A stretch of 64,000 nucleotides of DNA, from contig NZ_CP130613.1 in NCBI RefSeq assembly GCF_030623445.1, positions 2,542,001 through 2,606,000 of the forward strand, read 5' to 3'. Source of the DNA: Pseudogemmatithrix spongiicola (lineage in GTDB: Bacteria > Gemmatimonadota > Gemmatimonadetes > Gemmatimonadales > Gemmatimonadaceae). The notes beneath the pieces are model-generated. The model was not told the DNA's origin, ran no database searches, and saw only the letters and a program-made list of their open reading frames with translations. The position numbers and the translations under genes are program-made. Below are positions 28,586 to 38,998 of this stretch, piece after piece (position 1 is the first letter of the stretch; the number at the start of each line of letters is the position of its first letter).

Positions 28586-29958
28586 GCCTCGCCTCCGTAC
28601 CGCGACAGCTTGCGGTGCAGCGTGGACGGATCGATGCCCAACACCTCGGCCGCGCGGGTCTTGTTGCCCCCCTCGCTCTGCAGCACCCATTGGATGTACG
28701 CCCGCTCGATCAACTCCAGCGTCGGGTTGGCCGCGATGCGGTCGGCGATCAGCGGCTCGCTGCGGCGTTCGGTGATGCGTTCCGGCAGGGCGCTGAGTTG
28801 GATGGTCGGCCCATGCGTGAGGATGAGCGCGCGCTCCAGCGCGTTCTCGAGCTCGCGCACGTTACCCGGCCAGTTGTACTCGCGCAGCGCGTCACCCGCC
28901 TCTTGGCTCAGCTGCTTCGTCTCGCCCCCGCGCAGCGCGGCGCCGCGGCGGAGGAAGGCCTCGGCGAGCAGCGGGATGTCCTCCCGGCGCTCGCGCAGCG
29001 GCGGCAGGTGGATGGCGATGACGTTGAGGCGATAGAACAGGTCGCGGCGGAACGCCCCGCGCCGGATCTCCTCCTCAAGGTCGCGGTTCGTCGCGGCGAT
29101 GATGCGCGTGTCGATGGGCACCGCTTCGGTGGCGCCGACGGGAATCACTTCGCGGTGCTGCAGCACGCGCAGCAGCTTCACTTGGGTGGCTGGCGTGGTC
29201 TCGCCGATCTCGTCGAGGAAGAACGTGCCGCCGGCCGCCGCGGTGAACAGGCCCTCCTTGTCCTTCACGGCGCCGGTGAACGAGCCCTTCACGTGCCCGA
29301 ACAGTTCGCTCTCGAGCAGGCCCTCGGGCAACGCGCCGCAATTGATGGACGCGAACGTCGCCTCGGCGCGCATCGAGAGCTCGTGGATGTAGCGCGCCAC
29401 GACCTCCTTGCCCGTGCCGGACTCGCCGGTGATCAGTACCGTCGACTCCGTGTGCGCCACCGCCTCGGCGAGCGACAGCGCCTCGATCCACGCCGGGTGC
29501 GCGCCGACCGGGGCCGGTGCGTTCTTCCGCTCGCGCCGCTTCATCTCGCGCTTCAGCGACTTGTTCTCGAGGCGCAGCGCGCGATGCTCCGCCGCCCGCC
29601 GCAGGATGGCCAGCAGCTCGTCGTTGCGGAACGGCTTCTGGATGTAGTAGAACGCGCCGGCATTCACCGCCTGCATCGCCGTCTGCAGCGTGGCCTGCGC
29701 GGTCATGAGGATGACGGGCACCTCGGCGTCGTGCTCGCGCGCGGCGTTCAGCACCTCGACGCCGCCGACTCCGGGCATGCGCACGTCCGAGATGATGATG
29801 TCCGGCGTGAGCTGCGGGATGCGCTCGAGCGCGGCCTTGCCGCCGTGGGCGGTGTGCACGTCGAAGCCCTCGGCGCGCAGCAGGATCTCGAGCGTCTGCA
29901 GGATGCCTGTCTCGTCATCGACGACGAGCACGGTGGGGCGGCGGGATGGATCGGTCAT
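28582..29958 (-). CDS. pilR: Sigma-54-dependent response regulator, PilR-like
   Basis: 458 residues from the ATG at 29958 (ATGA overlap with the kinase gene). Receiver domain with phosphoacceptor Asp in DIIISDVRMPG and Lys in YIQKPF; AAA+ domain with Walker A GESGTGKE, the sigma-54 contact loop GSFTGA (Ser for Ala in GAFTGA), and FFLDEIGE; a Fis-type HTH at the end (NKTRAAEVLGIDPSTLHRKL). It activates sigma-54 RNA polymerase. The name PilR is inferred from the six-helix sensor partner and the nearby pilA sigma-54 promoter; other NtrC-family roles are possible. Confidence 0.82.
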   Translation of the reverse strand: MTDPSRRPTVLVVDDETGILQTLEILLRAEGFDVHTAHGGKAALERIPQLTPDIIISDVRMPGVGGVEVLNAAREHDAEVPVILMTAQATLQTAMQAVNAGAFYYIQKPFRNDELLAILRRAAEHRALRLENKSLKREMKRRERKNAPAPVGAHPAWIEALSLAEAVAHTESTVLITGESGTGKEVVARYIHELSMRAEATFASINCGALPEGLLESELFGHVKGSFTGAVKDKEGLFTAAAGGTFFLDEIGETTPATQVKLLRVLQHREVIPVGATEAVPIDTRIIAATNRDLEEEIRRGAFRRDLFYRLNVIAIHLPPLRERREDIPLLAEAFLRRGAALRGGETKQLSQEAGDALREYNWPGNVRELENALERALILTHGPTIQLSALPERITERRSEPLIADRIAANPTLELIERAYIQWVLQSEGGNKTRAAEVLGIDPSTLHRKLSRYGGEA

Positions 29959-31592
29959 AGGGACGCTCCCGAGGGGTCGTCGTCGGTGGGCAGATACACG
30001 GTGAAGCGGGTCCCGGCGCGATCGCTGTCGACGAGGATCACACCGCGATGCGCTTCGATGGCGCGATGCACGACGGCGAGGCCGAGGCCGCTGCCGCCGG
30101 ACTTGGTCGTCGCGAACGGTTCGAAGAGGCGGTCCTGGATGTCCGGCGGGATGCCCGGTCCGTCGTCGTGGACCTCGAGGGCGTACGAGGCGCCGGCGAA
30201 GGGCAGCCCCGCCAAGCGATCGGCCTCGCGCACGGCGCGCAATGAAACCGCGACATGGCCGTGGTCGCCCACGGCTTGGCACGCGTTCAGCACGAGGTTG
30301 AAGACCGCGCGATGCAACAGGTCTTCATCCCCAGCCAGCGGCGTCGGCTCGGACGGCAGGTCCACGTCCACGGCGACGGTCGCGCTGCGATCGGGATGCG
30401 TTCCGGCCAGCGCGACGGCCGACCGCACGACGTCGCGGAGGTCCAGCTCTTCGCGCCGTTCCGCCTGCACGCGCGAGAAATCGAGGAACTCCGAGAGCAG
30501 GCGCGACAGGCGGTCGGACTCGCGTGTGATCAAGGCCCCGAGGGTGCGCTCATCGTCGGTAGCCGTGGCGCGGCGGGCGAGCTGCTCCACCGAGGAGCGG
30601 ATGCTCGCGAGCGGATTCTTGATCTCGTGCGCCAGCGAGGCGCTGAGTTCGGCGACGGCTTCGAGGCGCTGGGCGCGCAGGCGCAGCGCCTCGAGGCGCT
30701 TCTCGTCCGAGATGTCCTGCACGATCACGGTCGTCGCACCCCCGACGGGACGCAGGTCGCCCGAGACGGCCGTCGTGGTGATGCCGAGGGGGATGGTCCG
30801 GCCCTCACGGGCGAGCGCCCCTTCGATGCGGGCGGCCCCGTGCCGGCCGGCAATCGTGGCCTCGACCGCGTCGGCGACGGCGGGCGAGACCGTCTGCAGC
30901 TGCCGCAGCACGGGCTGCCCCCCCAACGCCTCGAAGGGCACGCCGAGCAACCGCGACGCCGCCGGATTGGCGTAGAGCAAGCGCCCGAGGTCGTCGACCG
31001 TGATGATGGCCGCGCGGATGTTCGCGAGGATGTCCGCGGCGCGCACCTGCGCGCTGGCCAGTTCCGCCTCGAGTTGCTCGCGCCCCTGCCCCGCTTCCTG
31101 CAGCTGCCCGGCGATGTAGCTCGTCCCGACCACGACGAGCACGAACACCACCAATTGCAGCAACAGGGCGATCGAGATCTCCCCGCCGCTCACCAAGAAG
31201 GCATCGCCCGCGTACAGCACGCTGCCGAGCAGCGCGAGCAGCAACGAGCTGCCGATCGGCAGCAGCAGCGCGGCGGTGGCGTTCACCAGGATGTAGAGCG
31301 CGGCGAACTGCGAGTCACCGCCGCCGGTGAGGTGCACGACCACGGTCACCAGCAGGAGGTCGTGGACGAACTGCGCGTACAGGAAGCCGGGCCCGGCGTG
31401 CCGACGGTTGATTTCCGTGCGGATATAGGACGTCGCCGTGAGCGCCATCGCCGCGACGAATGCCGTAGCGGCGATGACGGTGTTCATCGGGTTCGCGAAC
31501 AGCGCGAACATCACCGCCCACGCGAAGTTGGCACTCGCGACGAGCAGTCGACCGACGTATATCCCGTTCAGCAGACGCCGCGGATCCAGCAC
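29955..31592 (-). CDS. pilS: Sensor histidine kinase with six-helix membrane domain, PilS-like
   Basis: 545 residues. About six membrane helices in the first 190 residues, a PAS domain (about 210-320; ILANIRAAIITVDDLGRLLY), HisKA with SLAHEIKNPLASIRSS (phospho-His), and a HATPase domain with NLVLNACQA, DDGPGI and GGSGLGLAVVHR. The layout is that of PilS, which in Pseudomonas senses pilin levels in the membrane. Start codon is GTG at 31592 with a poor ribosome site. Heads the operon with the PilR-like regulator and three glycosyltransferases. Confidence 0.82.
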   Translation of the reverse strand: MLDPRRLLNGIYVGRLLVASANFAWAVMFALFANPMNTVIAATAFVAAMALTATSYIRTEINRRHAGPGFLYAQFVHDLLLVTVVVHLTGGGDSQFAALYILVNATAALLLPIGSSLLLALLGSVLYAGDAFLVSGGEISIALLLQLVVFVLVVVGTSYIAGQLQEAGQGREQLEAELASAQVRAADILANIRAAIITVDDLGRLLYANPAASRLLGVPFEALGGQPVLRQLQTVSPAVADAVEATIAGRHGAARIEGALAREGRTIPLGITTTAVSGDLRPVGGATTVIVQDISDEKRLEALRLRAQRLEAVAELSASLAHEIKNPLASIRSSVEQLARRATATDDERTLGALITRESDRLSRLLSEFLDFSRVQAERREELDLRDVVRSAVALAGTHPDRSATVAVDVDLPSEPTPLAGDEDLLHRAVFNLVLNACQAVGDHGHVAVSLRAVREADRLAGLPFAGASYALEVHDDGPGIPPDIQDRLFEPFATTKSGGSGLGLAVVHRAIEAHRGVILVDSDRAGTRFTVYLPTDDDPSGASL

Positions 31593-32176: not shown

Positions 32177-32872
32177 TCAGCGACGTCGCTGCCCGTCGAA
32201 GCGGAAGGTGACGCCGATCGTGATCGTGAGCAGGTCGGCACGCGTGTTCTTCGGCTTGATGAGGATGTTGCCGCCCGCATCCTCGGAGATGCCGCCGGGT
32301 GTCAGGTAACGCACCGACTCGCCATTCCACGTGTAGCGACCGCCGATGTCGAAGAGCACTTCACCGCCCTTCAGCGGCAGGTACAGGCCCGCGAGCACAT
32401 GCTTCGAGAACGCGTTGTCCGAGGAGTTCGTCGTCGACGCGAACGGCTCATCCTCCGAGTTCGAGCCCTCGGCGCGCGTCACCGTATTGAAGTTCGAGAA
32501 CCCGAGCATCCCGGCCAGATAGGGCTTCGCGCGGCCGCTGGGCATGCCGACTTGCGCGCCGACGCTGCCGCCGACGATCGCGTTCGTGGTGGTCACGTCC
32601 ACCAGGATCAAGCCGAGCACACCGCCGCCCAACGGCACGCGCCGTGACTCGCTGCCGTAAATCTGGAGGTCGAAGCCCGCCCGGACGCCGAACTCCGACG
32701 CGAGCGGAAAGAGACCGGCCACGCCGAAGCCACCGGCGATGCTGACGTTGTTCGCAAACTCCCCTTGTGGGAGACCGACCTGGAGATTGACCGGGAGTCC
32801 GCCTTGGGCCGCGGCAGGAACTGACGAGCAGACGAGGGCGGCGAGGGCCGCGAGGGGACGCAGGGCGCGCAT
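32177..32872 (-). CDS. Predicted outer-membrane beta-barrel protein
   Basis: 231 residues. A signal peptide ends in PAAAQGG; the rest alternates polar and hydrophobic residues with Gly-rich turns and ends in aromatic/hydrophobic VTFRFDGQRRR, close to the C-terminal strand expected for a barrel. Eight to ten strands would fit. No family recognised beyond this. It lies 12 nt from the convergent arfB gene and 30 nt after the TolC-family gene, possibly in the same operon. Confidence 0.65.
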   Translation of the reverse strand: MRALRPLAALAALVCSSVPAAAQGGLPVNLQVGLPQGEFANNVSIAGGFGVAGLFPLASEFGVRAGFDLQIYGSESRRVPLGGGVLGLILVDVTTTNAIVGGSVGAQVGMPSGRAKPYLAGMLGFSNFNTVTRAEGSNSEDEPFASTTNSSDNAFSKHVLAGLYLPLKGGEVLFDIGGRYTWNGESVRYLTPGGISEDAGGNILIKPKNTRADLLTITIGVTFRFDGQRRR

Positions 32873-34363: not shown

Positions 34364-35712
34364 GGGGCGGACTTGGCTGGCGCCGGGCTCGCCGCGTTGC
34401 GCGTGCCCGAGTACCCGCTGCCGCCGCTGGTCGGCGTGAGCCCCGACTGCGGCACCGCCGGCGGAAAGCCGTTGATCGTGCGCCAGACCTCGAACCACAC
34501 GCGCACCTCGCGGAGCATCGCCCAGCCGCGCACGCCCGACCCCATGAGCAGCTCCCGCGGCCACGCGGGCTGCGCGGAATCGGGCGCAACGAGCACGCGG
34601 TAGTAGCCGTTGGGCAACGCCACCTGATCCACGACGGCGACGCGGCCGCCAAAGGTGCCGAGCGAGGCGTTGGGCCAGCCGCTGAACTGCAGCGCCGGCC
34701 AGCCCGCAAACTCCAGCCGCACCTCGTCACCGACGCGAATCAGCGGCACGTCGCGCGCGTTCACCTGCAGCGCCACCGCGAGTTCGGGGTTCGCGGCCTG
34801 CACGGTCGCGACCGCTTCGCCGTCCTTCACGACTTCGCCGATGCCCGCCCGCAACGCCCGCACGACGATGCCGTCGCGCGGGGCGCGCACCATCAGGAGG
34901 TCCTGGCGCTCGGACATGTTCGCCTCACCCGTCGCGAGCTTGGCGATCTCGGCGATGCCGTCCGCCACCTCGGCCAACGTCGCGCGGCGATCGCTCTCCA
35001 CCTTGGCGATCTTCTCGGCATAGTCGGCATCGACCGCCGACCGTTCGGCGCGCACCGTGAGCAACGCGGCGCGCTGCTCGATGGCCAGCGCCGCCGCACG
35101 CTGCTGCCGCTGACGGGCCATCTCCAGCTCCGCGCGCGACCGCAAGCCCTCGCGCTCCAGCTGCTGGATGCGCTCGGCCTGCACGGTCGCGATCGAGTCC
35201 TCGAGCTGCGCCGCCGCCAGCGACGCCGTGATCTGCTGGATGCGGTTGTCCGCGCGGATGCGGGCCAGCGTGCGCAACGAGTCCAGCGCGATGGCCTGGT
35301 CGGCGAGGGCGGCGGCCTTGGCCCGCTTCTCCTCGACGGAGCGCCGCTTGGCCGCCACCTGCTCGCCGAGCCGGTCGAGCGTGAGCGGATCGAGATACTC
35401 CTGCTTCACCTCGGCGAGGGCGACGATCGGATCGCCCACCTTCACCGAGTCGCCTTCCTGCACGTACCACTCGCTGATGCGCCCACCGATGGCCGCGACG
35501 GCCTCCTGCGGACGGTCGGCCGGCTGCAGTGCCGTCACCTCGCCCGCGCCCGCGACGTTCTGCTGCCACGGCAGGAACGCGACGATGAGCATGATGCCGA
35601 GCACGCCGCCGATCCACATCAGCAGCGTGCGCAGCGAGGGCTGGCGCGCGAGCAAGCGCACGCTCTCGAGCGAGGCGTCGCGGCGGTCGAGGAGGTCAGA
35701 GGTGGTGGCCAT
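34360..35712 (-). CDS. HlyD-family periplasmic adaptor (membrane fusion protein)
   Basis: 450 residues from the ATG at 35712 (TGATG overlap with the ABC gene). One N-terminal membrane helix (LLMWIGGVLGIMLIVAFLPW), a biotinyl-lipoyl half-motif (IGGRISEWYVQEGDSVKVGD), a long coiled coil (about 130-270, rich in Ala/Arg/Glu), the second lipoyl half (VRAPRDGIVVRALRAGIGEVVKDG) and a beta-barrel. It bridges the ABC protein and TolC. Confidence 0.9.
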   Translation of the reverse strand: MATTSDLLDRRDASLESVRLLARQPSLRTLLMWIGGVLGIMLIVAFLPWQQNVAGAGEVTALQPADRPQEAVAAIGGRISEWYVQEGDSVKVGDPIVALAEVKQEYLDPLTLDRLGEQVAAKRRSVEEKRAKAAALADQAIALDSLRTLARIRADNRIQQITASLAAAQLEDSIATVQAERIQQLEREGLRSRAELEMARQRQQRAAALAIEQRAALLTVRAERSAVDADYAEKIAKVESDRRATLAEVADGIAEIAKLATGEANMSERQDLLMVRAPRDGIVVRALRAGIGEVVKDGEAVATVQAANPELAVALQVNARDVPLIRVGDEVRLEFAGWPALQFSGWPNASLGTFGGRVAVVDQVALPNGYYRVLVAPDSAQPAWPRELLMGSGVRGWAMLREVRVWFEVWRTINGFPPAVPQSGLTPTSGGSGYSGTRNAASPAPAKSAP

Positions 35713-37904
35713 CAGGCGACGCTCCGGCTGCTGGGCACGAGCTCGCGCACGAAGATGTCGCTCGCGAGGTCCTTCCAGGGCTTGGCCGCATGCGTCACGC
35801 CATCGCGAAGCACCAACACCGTTTCCACCGAGGCGAAGACCTCGGGATCGTGCGACACGATGAACAGCGTCCACGGGGCGTTCGGTCCCGTCAGCACCTG
35901 GATGAGTTCGTGGCGCGCCGCCGGCTCAACCGTCGCGAGCACCTCGTCGAGGACGATGAGCCGCGGGCGCGCCACGATGGCGCGCGCAATGAGCAGGCGC
36001 ACGCGCAGGGTGGACGGCAGCCCGCGCCCGCCGCTCGCCAACGGCGTGCGCAGCCCCAGCGCCAAGGCCTGGACGTCATCGGCCGCGCCGACCGCTTCGA
36101 GCGCGCGCATCACATCGGCCGTGCTGATGCCCGCACGCCCCAGCGACACGTTCTCCTCGACCGAACCTTCGAACACCTCGCCCGGGCCGAGCACGAGCCC
36201 GATGCGGTCGCGTAGCGTCGCCGGATCGACATCGCGGAGCGTGATGCCACCGACCTGCACGACGCCGCCGTAGTGCGGCAGCAAGCCGGCCACGATGCCG
36301 AGGACCGTGGACGATCCCGCACCGTCCGAGCCGGTGATCGCCACCTTGCCACCCGGGCGCACGTCGAGCGAGATGCCCGACAGCGCCGGCCGGTTGGCCG
36401 CGGGATAGCTGTACGAGACATCCTGCAGCTTCACGGCGATGCCCGTGCCGTCGTCCGGCAGGGTAAGTCCGCCCACCGGCTCCAGCGGCAGATCCGTCAC
36501 GCCGCCGAGCTTGTAGACCGCGGTGAGCAGGTCGTAGACCTCGTCGAGCGAGTCGACGAGCTTCTCGACGCCCGCCAGCACCGTCACCACCACCAACTCG
36601 GCCGCCACGAACTGGCCCAGCGTGATCTGGCCCTGGATCACCAGCACGCTGCCGATGATCAGCAGCGAGCCGGTGATGAGCGCCTTGAGGCCCACGGCCG
36701 AGAGTGCCTGCCACACCAGCACCTTGAAATGCTTCTGGCGGTACTTGAGGTAGCCGCTCACGTGCTCGTCCATGCGGGCCAGCGCCGGCGTCGCGCGGCC
36801 GGCCGCCTTGAACGAGGCCACCGTGCGCGCCAACTCCTCGAGCCAGTGCACGGCGCGGTACTTGAACTTGCTCTCCATGAGGCTCGTCTCGAGCCCCTTG
36901 GGATACGTCAGTTTCAGCACGCCCCAGAGCAGCACCACCATGCCGATCCAGAAGAACGTGAAGTAGTAGTGGTAGAACGTGAGCAACAGCAGGCCGAAGA
37001 GCACCTGCAGCAGCGCCGTCGTCGCGCCGGTGAGCAGCTTGCCCAACGACTTCTGGATGGTCACCACTTCGAAGAAGCGGTTCATGCGCTCCGGCAAGTC
37101 GTCCTTGAGCCACTGCTCCACACTCACGCGCGGCACGCGCAGCGAGAACTCCAGCGCGATGCGGGCGAAGATGCGCTGCTGGATGCGCTCGACCGCGCTC
37201 AGCTGCAGCACTTGCAGCACGCCGGTCGCCGCGGTGCCGAGGATGACGAAGGCGATGAGGATGACGATCGGCTGCAGGAACAGGCCGCCCGACACGAGCC
37301 CGATGATCGCCTGCACGCCGAGCGGCAGCGTGAGCGAGAACAGGCCGACCAGCGTGGCGTAGGCGTAGACCAGGCCGATGTTCCCCTTCTCGAGGACCAG
37401 CAGCTCCCAGAGGCGCTCCATCGGCGTGCGGTCCGCGGCATCGGCGCTGGGGCCCAGCACCGCTTCCGGCAACACCTTGGCGGGGAACAGCACGCCGACA
37501 ACGCCGCTGCTGCCGGCAAGCCGCTCGAACAGGGCATCCCAGCCGAAGCGCTCCTGCTCACCGATCCCATCGGTCGTGAGGATCCGGGCAATCGCGACGT
37601 CACCGTCGACGGCATCGACCACGGCACCGCAGACGCCGCTCGTCGGCTGCTGCGCCACGATGGCCAGCGGCGCGGTGACGTCACGCATCGCGGAGCGGAA
37701 CTCCGCCGCCGCGTACGATTGGCGGAGGAACGCGACGCCGCAGCGCCGGCCACTCTCCACGATGGCCTCGGCGAGGTCTGCGGCGCTCTCTTCCGGGAGG
37801 TGCAGGCGACGGAGATCCTCGCGCCAGGCGGCACCGGGATCGTCGAGCCCAAGACGCTGGGCGATGTGCTGTGTCAGGCGCACAGCGCGCGGAAGGGTCC
37901 TCAT
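35712..37904 (-). CDS. ABC exporter, transmembrane plus ATPase, with degenerate Walker A
   Basis: 730 residues: an N-terminal domain of about 150 residues resembling a peptidase-like domain without an obvious catalytic Cys, a six-helix membrane domain (about 165-450) and an ATPase domain (about 480-720). The P-loop reads GSDGAGSST: the invariant Lys is Ser (codon TCG). The signature loop reads ASGGRGLPS rather than LSGGQ. Walker B LIVLDE and the switch IVSHD are intact. The neighbours suggest type I secretion-like export, but ATP hydrolysis is doubtful. First gene of a three-gene operon; the 155 nt upstream should carry its promoter. Confidence 0.85.
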   Translation of the reverse strand: MRTLPRAVRLTQHIAQRLGLDDPGAAWREDLRRLHLPEESAADLAEAIVESGRRCGVAFLRQSYAAAEFRSAMRDVTAPLAIVAQQPTSGVCGAVVDAVDGDVAIARILTTDGIGEQERFGWDALFERLAGSSGVVGVLFPAKVLPEAVLGPSADAADRTPMERLWELLVLEKGNIGLVYAYATLVGLFSLTLPLGVQAIIGLVSGGLFLQPIVILIAFVILGTAATGVLQVLQLSAVERIQQRIFARIALEFSLRVPRVSVEQWLKDDLPERMNRFFEVVTIQKSLGKLLTGATTALLQVLFGLLLLTFYHYYFTFFWIGMVVLLWGVLKLTYPKGLETSLMESKFKYRAVHWLEELARTVASFKAAGRATPALARMDEHVSGYLKYRQKHFKVLVWQALSAVGLKALITGSLLIIGSVLVIQGQITLGQFVAAELVVVTVLAGVEKLVDSLDEVYDLLTAVYKLGGVTDLPLEPVGGLTLPDDGTGIAVKLQDVSYSYPAANRPALSGISLDVRPGGKVAITGSDGAGSSTVLGIVAGLLPHYGGVVQVGGITLRDVDPATLRDRIGLVLGPGEVFEGSVEENVSLGRAGISTADVMRALEAVGAADDVQALALGLRTPLASGGRGLPSTLRVRLLIARAIVARPRLIVLDEVLATVEPAARHELIQVLTGPNAPWTLFIVSHDPEVFASVETVLVLRDGVTHAAKPWKDLASDIFVRELVPSSRSVA

Positions 37905-38059: not shown

Positions 38060-38581
38060 CTACGGGATGACGGGGAGGCCGGCCTGGATCGCGAGCGCGA
38101 TGCGCTCGTGATTCGTGAGGCGGCCGCCCGTAATGACGACGACCAGGTTGTTGTTCGTCACCATGAGCATCGGAGGCGCGAACGGCGTGGTCTGCCCCGG
38201 AGGCGCGGCCGTGAGCGAATCCAGCCGGTCGGTGATGCGTCGGCGGGCCACGGAGTCCGGGTAGATCCACGCATAGACCGTCCCGCCCCCGGCCAGCAGC
38301 CGAATCGGCGGCTGTCCCATCCAGGCGGCGTCCGGCGCGGGGTCGGGGTTCGCGCGTGGCGCGACGCCGGCGCGCAGGAGGCGATCCATCACGTGCGCCT
38401 CCGTCCACAGCCCGTCGCTCGGCAGCGCCGCCGCTTGCCGCGCCGTGGTCTCCGCGGCGGCCATCTCCTGGCGCACGGCGCGCTCGGCCGCGGCCTGTTC
38501 CGCGGCGGGATCGCCGCAGGCACCCAACCCGAACAGACCCGATACGAGCACGGCACGGCGAACGCCCGCGGCCGTCAGCAT
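38060..38581 (-). CDS. Predicted lipoprotein of unknown function
   Basis: 173 residues from the ATG at 38581; longer starts would run into the divergent Hsp15 gene. Signal peptide with lipobox (FGLGAC) gives a lipid-anchored Cys. An Ala/Glu-rich helix follows, then a compact domain (LLAGGGTVYAWIYPDS, MVTNNNLVVVITGG). I recognise no family. Only 12 nt separate its start from that of the divergent S4 gene. Confidence 0.65.
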   Translation of the reverse strand: MLTAAGVRRAVLVSGLFGLGACGDPAAEQAAAERAVRQEMAAAETTARQAAALPSDGLWTEAHVMDRLLRAGVAPRANPDPAPDAAWMGQPPIRLLAGGGTVYAWIYPDSVARRRITDRLDSLTAAPPGQTTPFAPPMLMVTNNNLVVVITGGRLTNHERIALAIQAGLPVIP

Positions 38582-38587
38582 TAGCTT
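38582..38587 (+). promoter_or_regulatory. Candidate leaderless-type -10 box (TAGCTT) before the Hsp15 gene
   Basis: TAGCTT is followed by exactly 6 nt and the ATG at 38594. The same TAGCTT-N6-ATG arrangement occurs before the APC permease and an M28 peptidase. No ribosome site lies between. Confidence 0.45.
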
Positions 38588-38593
38588 GCATTC

Positions 38594-38998
<405 letters not shown>

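Follow-up and report, generated by a model that had tools for sequence, protein, structure and literature searches.

The ATPase is the defining part of ATP-binding cassette (ABC) transporters. Type I exporters of the HlyB, PCAT1 and LapB-LssB kind (HlyB-HlyD-TolC) are the closest described relatives of an operon that we analyzed in a 64,000-nucleotide stretch of the Pseudogemmatithrix spongiicola genome (contig NZ_CP130613.1, positions 2,542,001 to 2,606,000; referred to here as the window), with which they share the gene order ABC-HlyD-TolC and a fold of six transmembrane helices (6-TM). Unlike these exporters, the ABC exporter-like protein of the window lacks the Walker A lysine and the signature of its nucleotide-binding domain (NBD), and six of its relatives have no NBD at all. 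The heterodimeric exporters (TM287/288, TmrAB, BmrCD, TAP and ABCG5/G8) likewise combine an intact NBD fold with degenerate catalytic residues, but they keep one canonical site by way of a partner, whereas here no partner gene adjoins and both sites of a homodimer would be dead. In the part of PMC7756269 that deals with such sites, a heterodimer with a canonical partner is their usual context, and in ABCG5/G8 a changed signature accompanies the substitution of arginine for the Walker A lysine. LmrA-MD and MsbA-MD, engineered from LmrA and MsbA, also consist of an ABC exporter transmembrane domain (TMD) without an NBD. NBD-less LmrA is described as a homodimeric ethidium-proton symporter in which Glu314, in transmembrane helix 6 (TM6), is needed for the dependence on a pH gradient (excerpted from PMC2704374), and NBD-less MsbA is described as effluxing ethidium with a pH gradient (excerpted from PMC4979069). 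These two proteins are laboratory truncations without HlyD or TolC, whereas the loss described below is natural and has persisted in six species.

In open-access PMC papers (subscription papers and preprints lay outside the search), we found no description of an ABC exporter that naturally lacks its NBD or is dead across a whole family. The comparisons below show a tripartite export operon, maintained by selection, whose ABC subunit, judged by its sequence, lacks a canonical ATPase in all of the members that we examined. A large natural family in which the exporter fold, HlyD and TolC persist without the ATPase would show that an ABC membrane domain can be a working pump, and the long-disputed proton coupling of ABC exporter membrane domains would become testable on natural proteins.

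The window protein has lost the Walker A lysine and the signature

The Walker A DNA of the window gene reads ggc tcg gac ggt gcg gga tcg tcc acg, confirming the P-loop GSDGAGSST with a TCG codon at the lysine position that an earlier note on this DNA had pointed out. Serine (Ser531) thus occupies the position of the lysine expected of an ABC exporter, and because TCG differs from AAG and AAA by at least two bases, one miscalled base cannot explain it. The same GSDGAGSST is present in a separate genome, in a protein 92% identical to that of the window (genome G002, locus L002; also locus L031, from the metagenome-assembled genome [MAG] Gemmatimonas sp. PR.013). The nearest named relative of the window protein is a 92% identical protein from a Gemmatimonas sp. 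MAG.

The signature had been read as ASGGRGLPS, which we found to be out of register. When the protein was aligned with 24 ordinary exporters, the segment 'GRGLPSTLRVRL' fell onto their GxxLSGGQRQRL, which rules out SGGRG and puts LPSTL at the signature position. With the register corrected, it follows that LSGGQ has been lost in addition to the Walker A lysine; the Ser, both Gly residues and the Gln are all replaced, and the Q-loop Gln is Gly, which brings the further losses among ATP-contacting motifs to two. The Walker B Asp-Glu pair and the switch His are retained in the window protein, as the earlier note had stated, but not throughout the family. The 24 ordinary exporters were all 24 of the candidates tried, and a Walker A motif was required of them, so that the presence of the lysine in 24/24 is a matter of construction.

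Despite these losses, the NBD fold is intact in a structure model of the window protein (pLDDT 86.9, pTM 0.80), and the best full-length Foldseek matches of the model are PCAT1 and HlyB/D. VIA-align gave Z scores of about 30 to many ABC exporters over residues 158-727. The N-terminal domain, which may be C39-like, is covered by the Foldseek alignments to PCAT1 and HlyB, which span 736-744 columns, whereas the VIA-align rows mostly start at residues 154-171. The NBD scores 53.9 bits with PF00005 (ABC_tran; cut-off, 25) and the membrane domain scores 29.8 bits with ABC_membrane (cut-off, 28). The protein is far below the cut-off of all of the listed NCBIfam models for type I secretion system permease/ATPases, the best matches being NHLM exporters (191.5 bits; cut-off, 853.3) and LssB exporters (168.7 bits; cut-off, 693.1).

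The HlyD and TolC genes, partners that are likewise present in type I secretion, are intact and overlapping, as had been reported: they have Pfam matches, the ABC stop codon and the HlyD start codon share one base (TGATG), and the HlyD and TolC genes overlap by four bases at the HlyD stop codon (GTGA). By fold and operon, the family belongs with the ABC exporter and type I secretion kind, but its catalytic residues depart from that kind. Public records label the family genes "ABC transporter ATP-binding protein," and the energy source of the family is therefore probably misannotated there.

Catalytic motifs are lost throughout the family, lineage by lineage

We surveyed close relatives in 60 related genomes, including 16 of the same genus and 20 of the same family. 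Full-length relatives with 43-92% identity were present in 9 of the 16 and 3 of the 20, and the remaining genomes had only distant exporters (112 bits or less). The close orthologues that were aligned are all without the Walker A lysine, carrying Ser, Gln, Glu, Ala or Arg in its place. The P. spongiicola genome itself, searched as a single 3.26-Mb contig, gave a next best match of 76 bits, i.e., no close paralogue, its other exporters being distant.

For a wider survey, the query was a relative from Mesonia oceanica (L032), with matches accepted at E <= 1e-30. Matches, not all of them equally degenerate, were found in 46 of 395 Gemmatimonadota and 97 of 395 Bacteroidota genomes sampled, and plasmid and chromid records added Persicobacter, Aureibacter, Riemerella and 15 Sphingomonadales records, 9 of which were used (the truncated row L194 among them). 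Removal of 9 repeats, with identical last 300 residues, from 168 loci with a family open reading frame (ORF) left 159 members. In the tree, the family separated from the ordinary exporters as a single group (support, 99), and a core clade of 120 rows that includes the window gene had a support of 100 and was recovered, again at 100, in a 68-row mixture-model tree.

In an alignment-free search, a Walker A motif (G4xGK[ST]) and an LSGG-type motif occurred together in 0 of the 159 family members, compared with 18 of the 24 ordinary exporters. The aligned signature column told the same story, with LSGG in none of the 153 NBD-bearing members (0/114 in the core clade and 0/39 outside it); the three "SGG" matches found by regular expression (L109, L128 and L183) lie off this column, L109 having no NBD. 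The Q-loop Gln is retained in 13 of the 153. Beyond the signature, the lineages differ. Among 48 Gemmatimonadota rows, the Walker A Lys is present in 1, the Walker B Asp in 48 and the switch His in 42, whereas the corresponding numbers for the 96 NBD-bearing Bacteroidota rows are 94, 30 and 21; in the 9 Sphingomonadales rows, Walker A Lys, LSGG, Walker B Asp and switch His are all absent. The Walker A Lys, the Walker B Asp-Glu and the switch His are found together in none of the 114 NBD-bearing members of the core clade. Outside the core clade, 21 of 39 NBD-bearing members keep all four of these residues, and these 21 may be working but altered ATPases.

The fact that different motifs have been lost in different lineages implies stepwise, lineage-specific losses and not a single accident. 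Our suggestion for their order is that the signature went first, followed by either the Walker A motif or the Walker B motif with the switch His, and that the NBD, in one Bacteroidota lineage, went last; it is offered as a suggestion because the deep order of the tree is unsure, long branches (Sphingomonadales versus the outgroup) blurring it at the family root. Within the Gemmatimonadota, the Walker A site is not conserved as Ser, which was the question that the earlier note had posed for homologues: we counted R in 19 rows, Q in 12, E in 9, S in 3, T in 2 and A, K and V in 1 each. A position that varies this freely is a lost residue, and a new catalytic Ser at Walker A is thereby ruled out.

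Six members have no NBD

In six Bacteroidota genomes (G771, G566, G649, G763, G661 and G480; loci L109-L114), the family protein is a TMD of 332-339 amino acids that stops at the TMD-NBD linker. HlyD and TolC genes come next in 6/6 of these loci. The HlyD start lies 66, 34, -8, -8 and -8 nucleotides from the stop codon of the NBD-less gene in five loci, and in L110 the HlyD-bearing reading frame overlaps that stop. The six form one clade (support, 99) that is sister to the NBD-bearing L128 (support, 98) in two trees, and since they nest among NBD-bearing relatives, the NBD has been lost rather than never gained. In a model of L111 (pLDDT 92.5, pTM 0.85), short helices accompany six long ones, which together make a clean 6-TM exporter domain; the structures that it matches are those of ABC exporters, among them TmrAB, PCAT1 and HlyB.

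A displaced family NBD was not found in these six genomes with the NBD of the sister L117 as the query. The search returned E values of 2e-175 and 8e-101 in control genomes but at best 5e-27 in the NBD-less ones, whose best matches (28-29% identity, E about 1e-23 to 1e-27) are as weak as those that ordinary exporters give in two control genomes. In the TMD, Gln399 is present in 0/6 NBD-less members and in 151 of the other 153. The region of coupling helix 2 has 45% identity among the NBD-less proteins compared with 61% among their sisters (60% and 63%, respectively, for the whole TMD). Decay of this region was considered as proof that no NBD docks, but it is only partial, and we retain it as weak evidence. 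Intracellular loop 1 (ICL1), around coupling helix 1, is conserved even in the NBD-less members, and because coupling helix 1 and the basic residue of coupling helix 2 are kept, some NBD may still dock.

Past the TolC gene of L109, with one gene between, lies a gene for a separate 282-amino-acid ABC ATPase with a normal Walker A motif (L109:10236-11084); it looks like part of another transporter.

The membrane domain is the most constrained part

We found the NBD to be more identical than the TMD in 356 of 11,476 family pairs compared with 272 of 276 pairs of ordinary exporters, so that the NBD evolves faster than the TMD in the family, the reverse of what is seen in ordinary exporters. Between the window gene and L002, dN/dS (Nei-Gojobori) is 0.039 for the TMD and 0.074 for the NBD, so that purifying selection acts on both domains in this lineage. 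Taken together, the pair counts and dN/dS imply that the NBD is still constrained but is no longer the most constrained part. In the TMD, Asn275, Lys285, Ser345 and Lys348 are family specific and present in 159/159 members. Position 436 is acidic in 158 of the 159 (157 Glu, 1 Asp) and in 0 of the 24 ordinary exporters, and Glu436 sits near the start of TM6 (helix 431-470) in the model. LmrA Glu314 and Glu436 are both in TM6 and are likened here by helix, not by aligned position.

A possible natural counterpart of the engineered NBD-less exporters

The reading that we favor, at about even confidence, is that the operon encodes a tripartite exporter in which the ABC ATPase domain has become a pseudo-ATPase and which is likeliest driven by the proton motive force. 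The clade-wide catalytic losses and the six NBD-less members strongly support the non-hydrolytic or otherwise unusual mechanism that the earlier note had put forward as a possibility. Two identical degenerate subunits would make up a 12-helix exporter of the usual kind, which would dock on HlyD and TolC and go through its transport cycle without ATP hydrolysis at its own NBDs. The proton motive force would be the likeliest energy source, with engineered NBD-less LmrA and MsbA as the precedent; the family-specific TM6 carboxylate Glu436 would be the first candidate for the coupling site; and the remnant NBD, where present, might act as a structural or nucleotide-sensing clamp. Somewhat more tentatively, the family could represent a natural and widespread tripartite class in which an ABC exporter has turned into a secondary, ion-driven transporter, the counterpart of LmrA-MD and MsbA-MD. 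In EmrAB-TolC and AcrAB-TolC, a proton-driven inner membrane pump works with an adaptor and TolC. These pumps would be the working analogue, although their MFS and RND components are unrelated to the ABC exporter fold of the family.

Several observations weigh against this reading. The window protein keeps the Walker B Asp-Glu and the switch His, and nucleotide binding may matter, as the Walker A Lys persists in 94 of the 96 NBD-bearing Bacteroidota members. Members in which most catalytic residues are intact have Glu436 too, and for that reason this residue cannot by itself mark a change of engine. In the NBD-less members, the relaxation of coupling helix 2 is only partial, its basic residue being kept in 6/6. 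The work on proton coupling in LmrA and MsbA reportedly comes from one school and is contested. Furthermore, the relevant excerpt of PMC4979069 reports that deletion of only the Walker A Lys from MsbA abolished efflux from cells, whereas MsbA without its NBD remained functional, implying that a dead NBD that remains attached can block transport; such blocking would, on the other hand, explain the decay of other nucleotide-contacting motifs in the family.

An alternative that we consider unlikely is that the degenerate subunit has a partner in trans from another locus, either an intact ABC half-transporter or a free NBD; pairing with another ATPase subunit had also been envisaged in the earlier note. 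Degenerate sites are normal in heterodimers, and Lys to Arg, the change in ABCG5/G8 (described in part of PMC7756269), is the commonest one here. The P. spongiicola genome has many ABC_tran matches (45 reported), and the conservation of ICL1 even in NBD-less members points the same way. However, we found no adjoining half-transporter with a canonical site: among 81 loci with flanks of 3 kb on either side, only 1 had an ORF with Walker A and LSGG-like motifs nearby, and on the opposite strand, by a strict pattern that divergent ABC proteins, such as the one near L109, escape. The exporters elsewhere in the genome are distant (76 bits at best), the family NBD was not found in the six NBD-less genomes, and their members have lost Gln399 and have a relaxed coupling-helix-2 region, all of which leaves pairing with another ATPase with little support. 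Rather less probable is a non-canonical ATPase that hydrolyzes ATP slowly through its remaining residues (Walker B and His in the window protein, the Walker A Lys in the Bacteroidota). The intact Walker B and His of the window protein, the retention of the Asp in 48/48 and the His in 42/48 Gemmatimonadota and of the Lys in 94/96 Bacteroidota, the purifying selection on the NBD and the 21 of 39 members outside the core clade with Lys, Asp, Glu and His would all suit such an enzyme; the loss of LSGG from all 153 NBD-bearing members, the survival of the Q-loop Gln in only 13 of them, a retained set that differs from lineage to lineage and six members with no NBD would not.

The family-specific polar residues that are invariant in the TMD (Asn275, Lys285, Ser345 and Lys348, together with Glu436 in 157/159), the full tripartite operon and the upstream TetR genes of many Bacteroidota loci, usual for efflux pumps, also make it very unlikely that the protein is no active exporter but a passive conduit, a scaffold or a regulator of the HlyD-TolC channel, even though all of the energy-coupling motifs have proved dispensable in the lineage. 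Unlikelier still is a switch in which the NBD binds nucleotide without hydrolysis and opens or closes the TMD. Most Bacteroidota members do keep the Lys and the P-loop shape, and the NBD fold of the window protein is well predicted and constrained, but the P-loop Lys is gone from 47/48 Gemmatimonadota, the Sphingomonadales have lost every motif, and a switch alone supplies no energy. Sequencing error or recent pseudogenization, which the earlier note would have inferred had the close homologues all kept Lys, has a negligible chance of being right. No aligned close relative has Lys, the codon is two bases away from those for Lys, the same residue occurs in an independent genome, all relatives are degenerate, dN/dS is far below 1, and the overlapping operon is intact; these findings refute it, the sole sign of decay being in a relative elsewhere, L194, which is truncated at an IS3 insertion.

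Operon organization and neighboring genes

The positions of the operon and of the features discussed above are collected in Table 1.

Table 1. Features of the ABC-HlyD-TolC operon, numbered from the first nucleotide of the window
Feature	Position	Strand	Basis
ABC-exporter-like inner membrane protein, 730 amino acids (N-terminal domain, 6-TM domain and degenerate NBD)	37904-35712	(-)	
N-terminal domain, residues 1-143, located where HlyB/PCAT1 have their C39-like domain	37476..37904	(-)	Structure model
Transmembrane domain (ABC_membrane fold), residues 158-470; better conserved in the family than any other part	36495..37433	(-)	Pfam, model, alignment
Glu436, predicted TM6, putative proton-coupling residue (candidate)	36597..36599	(-)	Alignment and model
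Degenerate nucleotide-binding domain (residues 478-725), which retains its fold in the model	35730..36473	(-)	
Walker A remnant GSDGAGSST (TCG, Ser531, at the Lys position, 36314-36312)	36332-36306	(-)	
LSGGQ signature position, here LPSTL	36020-36006	(-)	Alignment
Walker B Asp-Glu, retained	35948-35943	(-)	
Switch (H-loop) His, retained	35852-35850	(-)	
HlyD-family periplasmic adaptor; its start codon, ATG, shares one base with the ABC stop codon	35712-34360	(-)	Pfam
TolC-family outer membrane protein (OEP); its start codon, GTG, overlaps the end of HlyD	34363-32903	(-)	Pfam

The operon is conserved in the family. HlyD adjoins in 153 of 156 testable loci (Gemmatimonadota, 46/46; Bacteroidota, 99/101; Sphingomonadales, 8/9), and TolC is present in 84 of 88 (8/8, 68/71 and 8/9, respectively). 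The N-terminal domain is missing in many Bacteroidota relatives. With four Bacteroidota TetR queries, which distant TetR proteins could escape, 48 of the 101 Bacteroidota loci that could be tested had a TetR gene upstream, compared with 0 of 39 in the Gemmatimonadota, which speaks against TetR as a family-wide partner. The ligand-binding-type regulators (TetR) beside many copies hint that the cargo might be a small molecule rather than a protein. In the window, Pfam searches of the immediate neighbors of the operon gave no secreted-substrate family, no search being aimed at RTX proteins or leader peptides.

Directly upstream of the operon and on the same strand is a small ORF for a putative lipoprotein (38060-38902, minus strand) with no Pfam match. 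Downstream of the TolC gene lies a PilS-like sensor histidine kinase gene (29955-31592, minus strand), with an uncharacterized ORF (32177-32872) between the two.

Some loci elsewhere differ in arrangement. L194, on a plasmid of Sphingopyxis sp. 113P3 (NZ_CP009453.1), is a broken member whose NBD is truncated just before an IS3 transposase gene, and HlyD and TolC were not found near it. In the Bacteroidota, L123 and L159 are ABC genes with the Walker A Lys and Asp-Glu and with no HlyD or TolC adjoining. Genome G449 has two complete family operons (L115 and L116), in both of which the Walker A Lys is present and Walker B is degenerate (ND), and in Sphingobium (L047:1362-5664) a DUF2309 gene precedes the operon.

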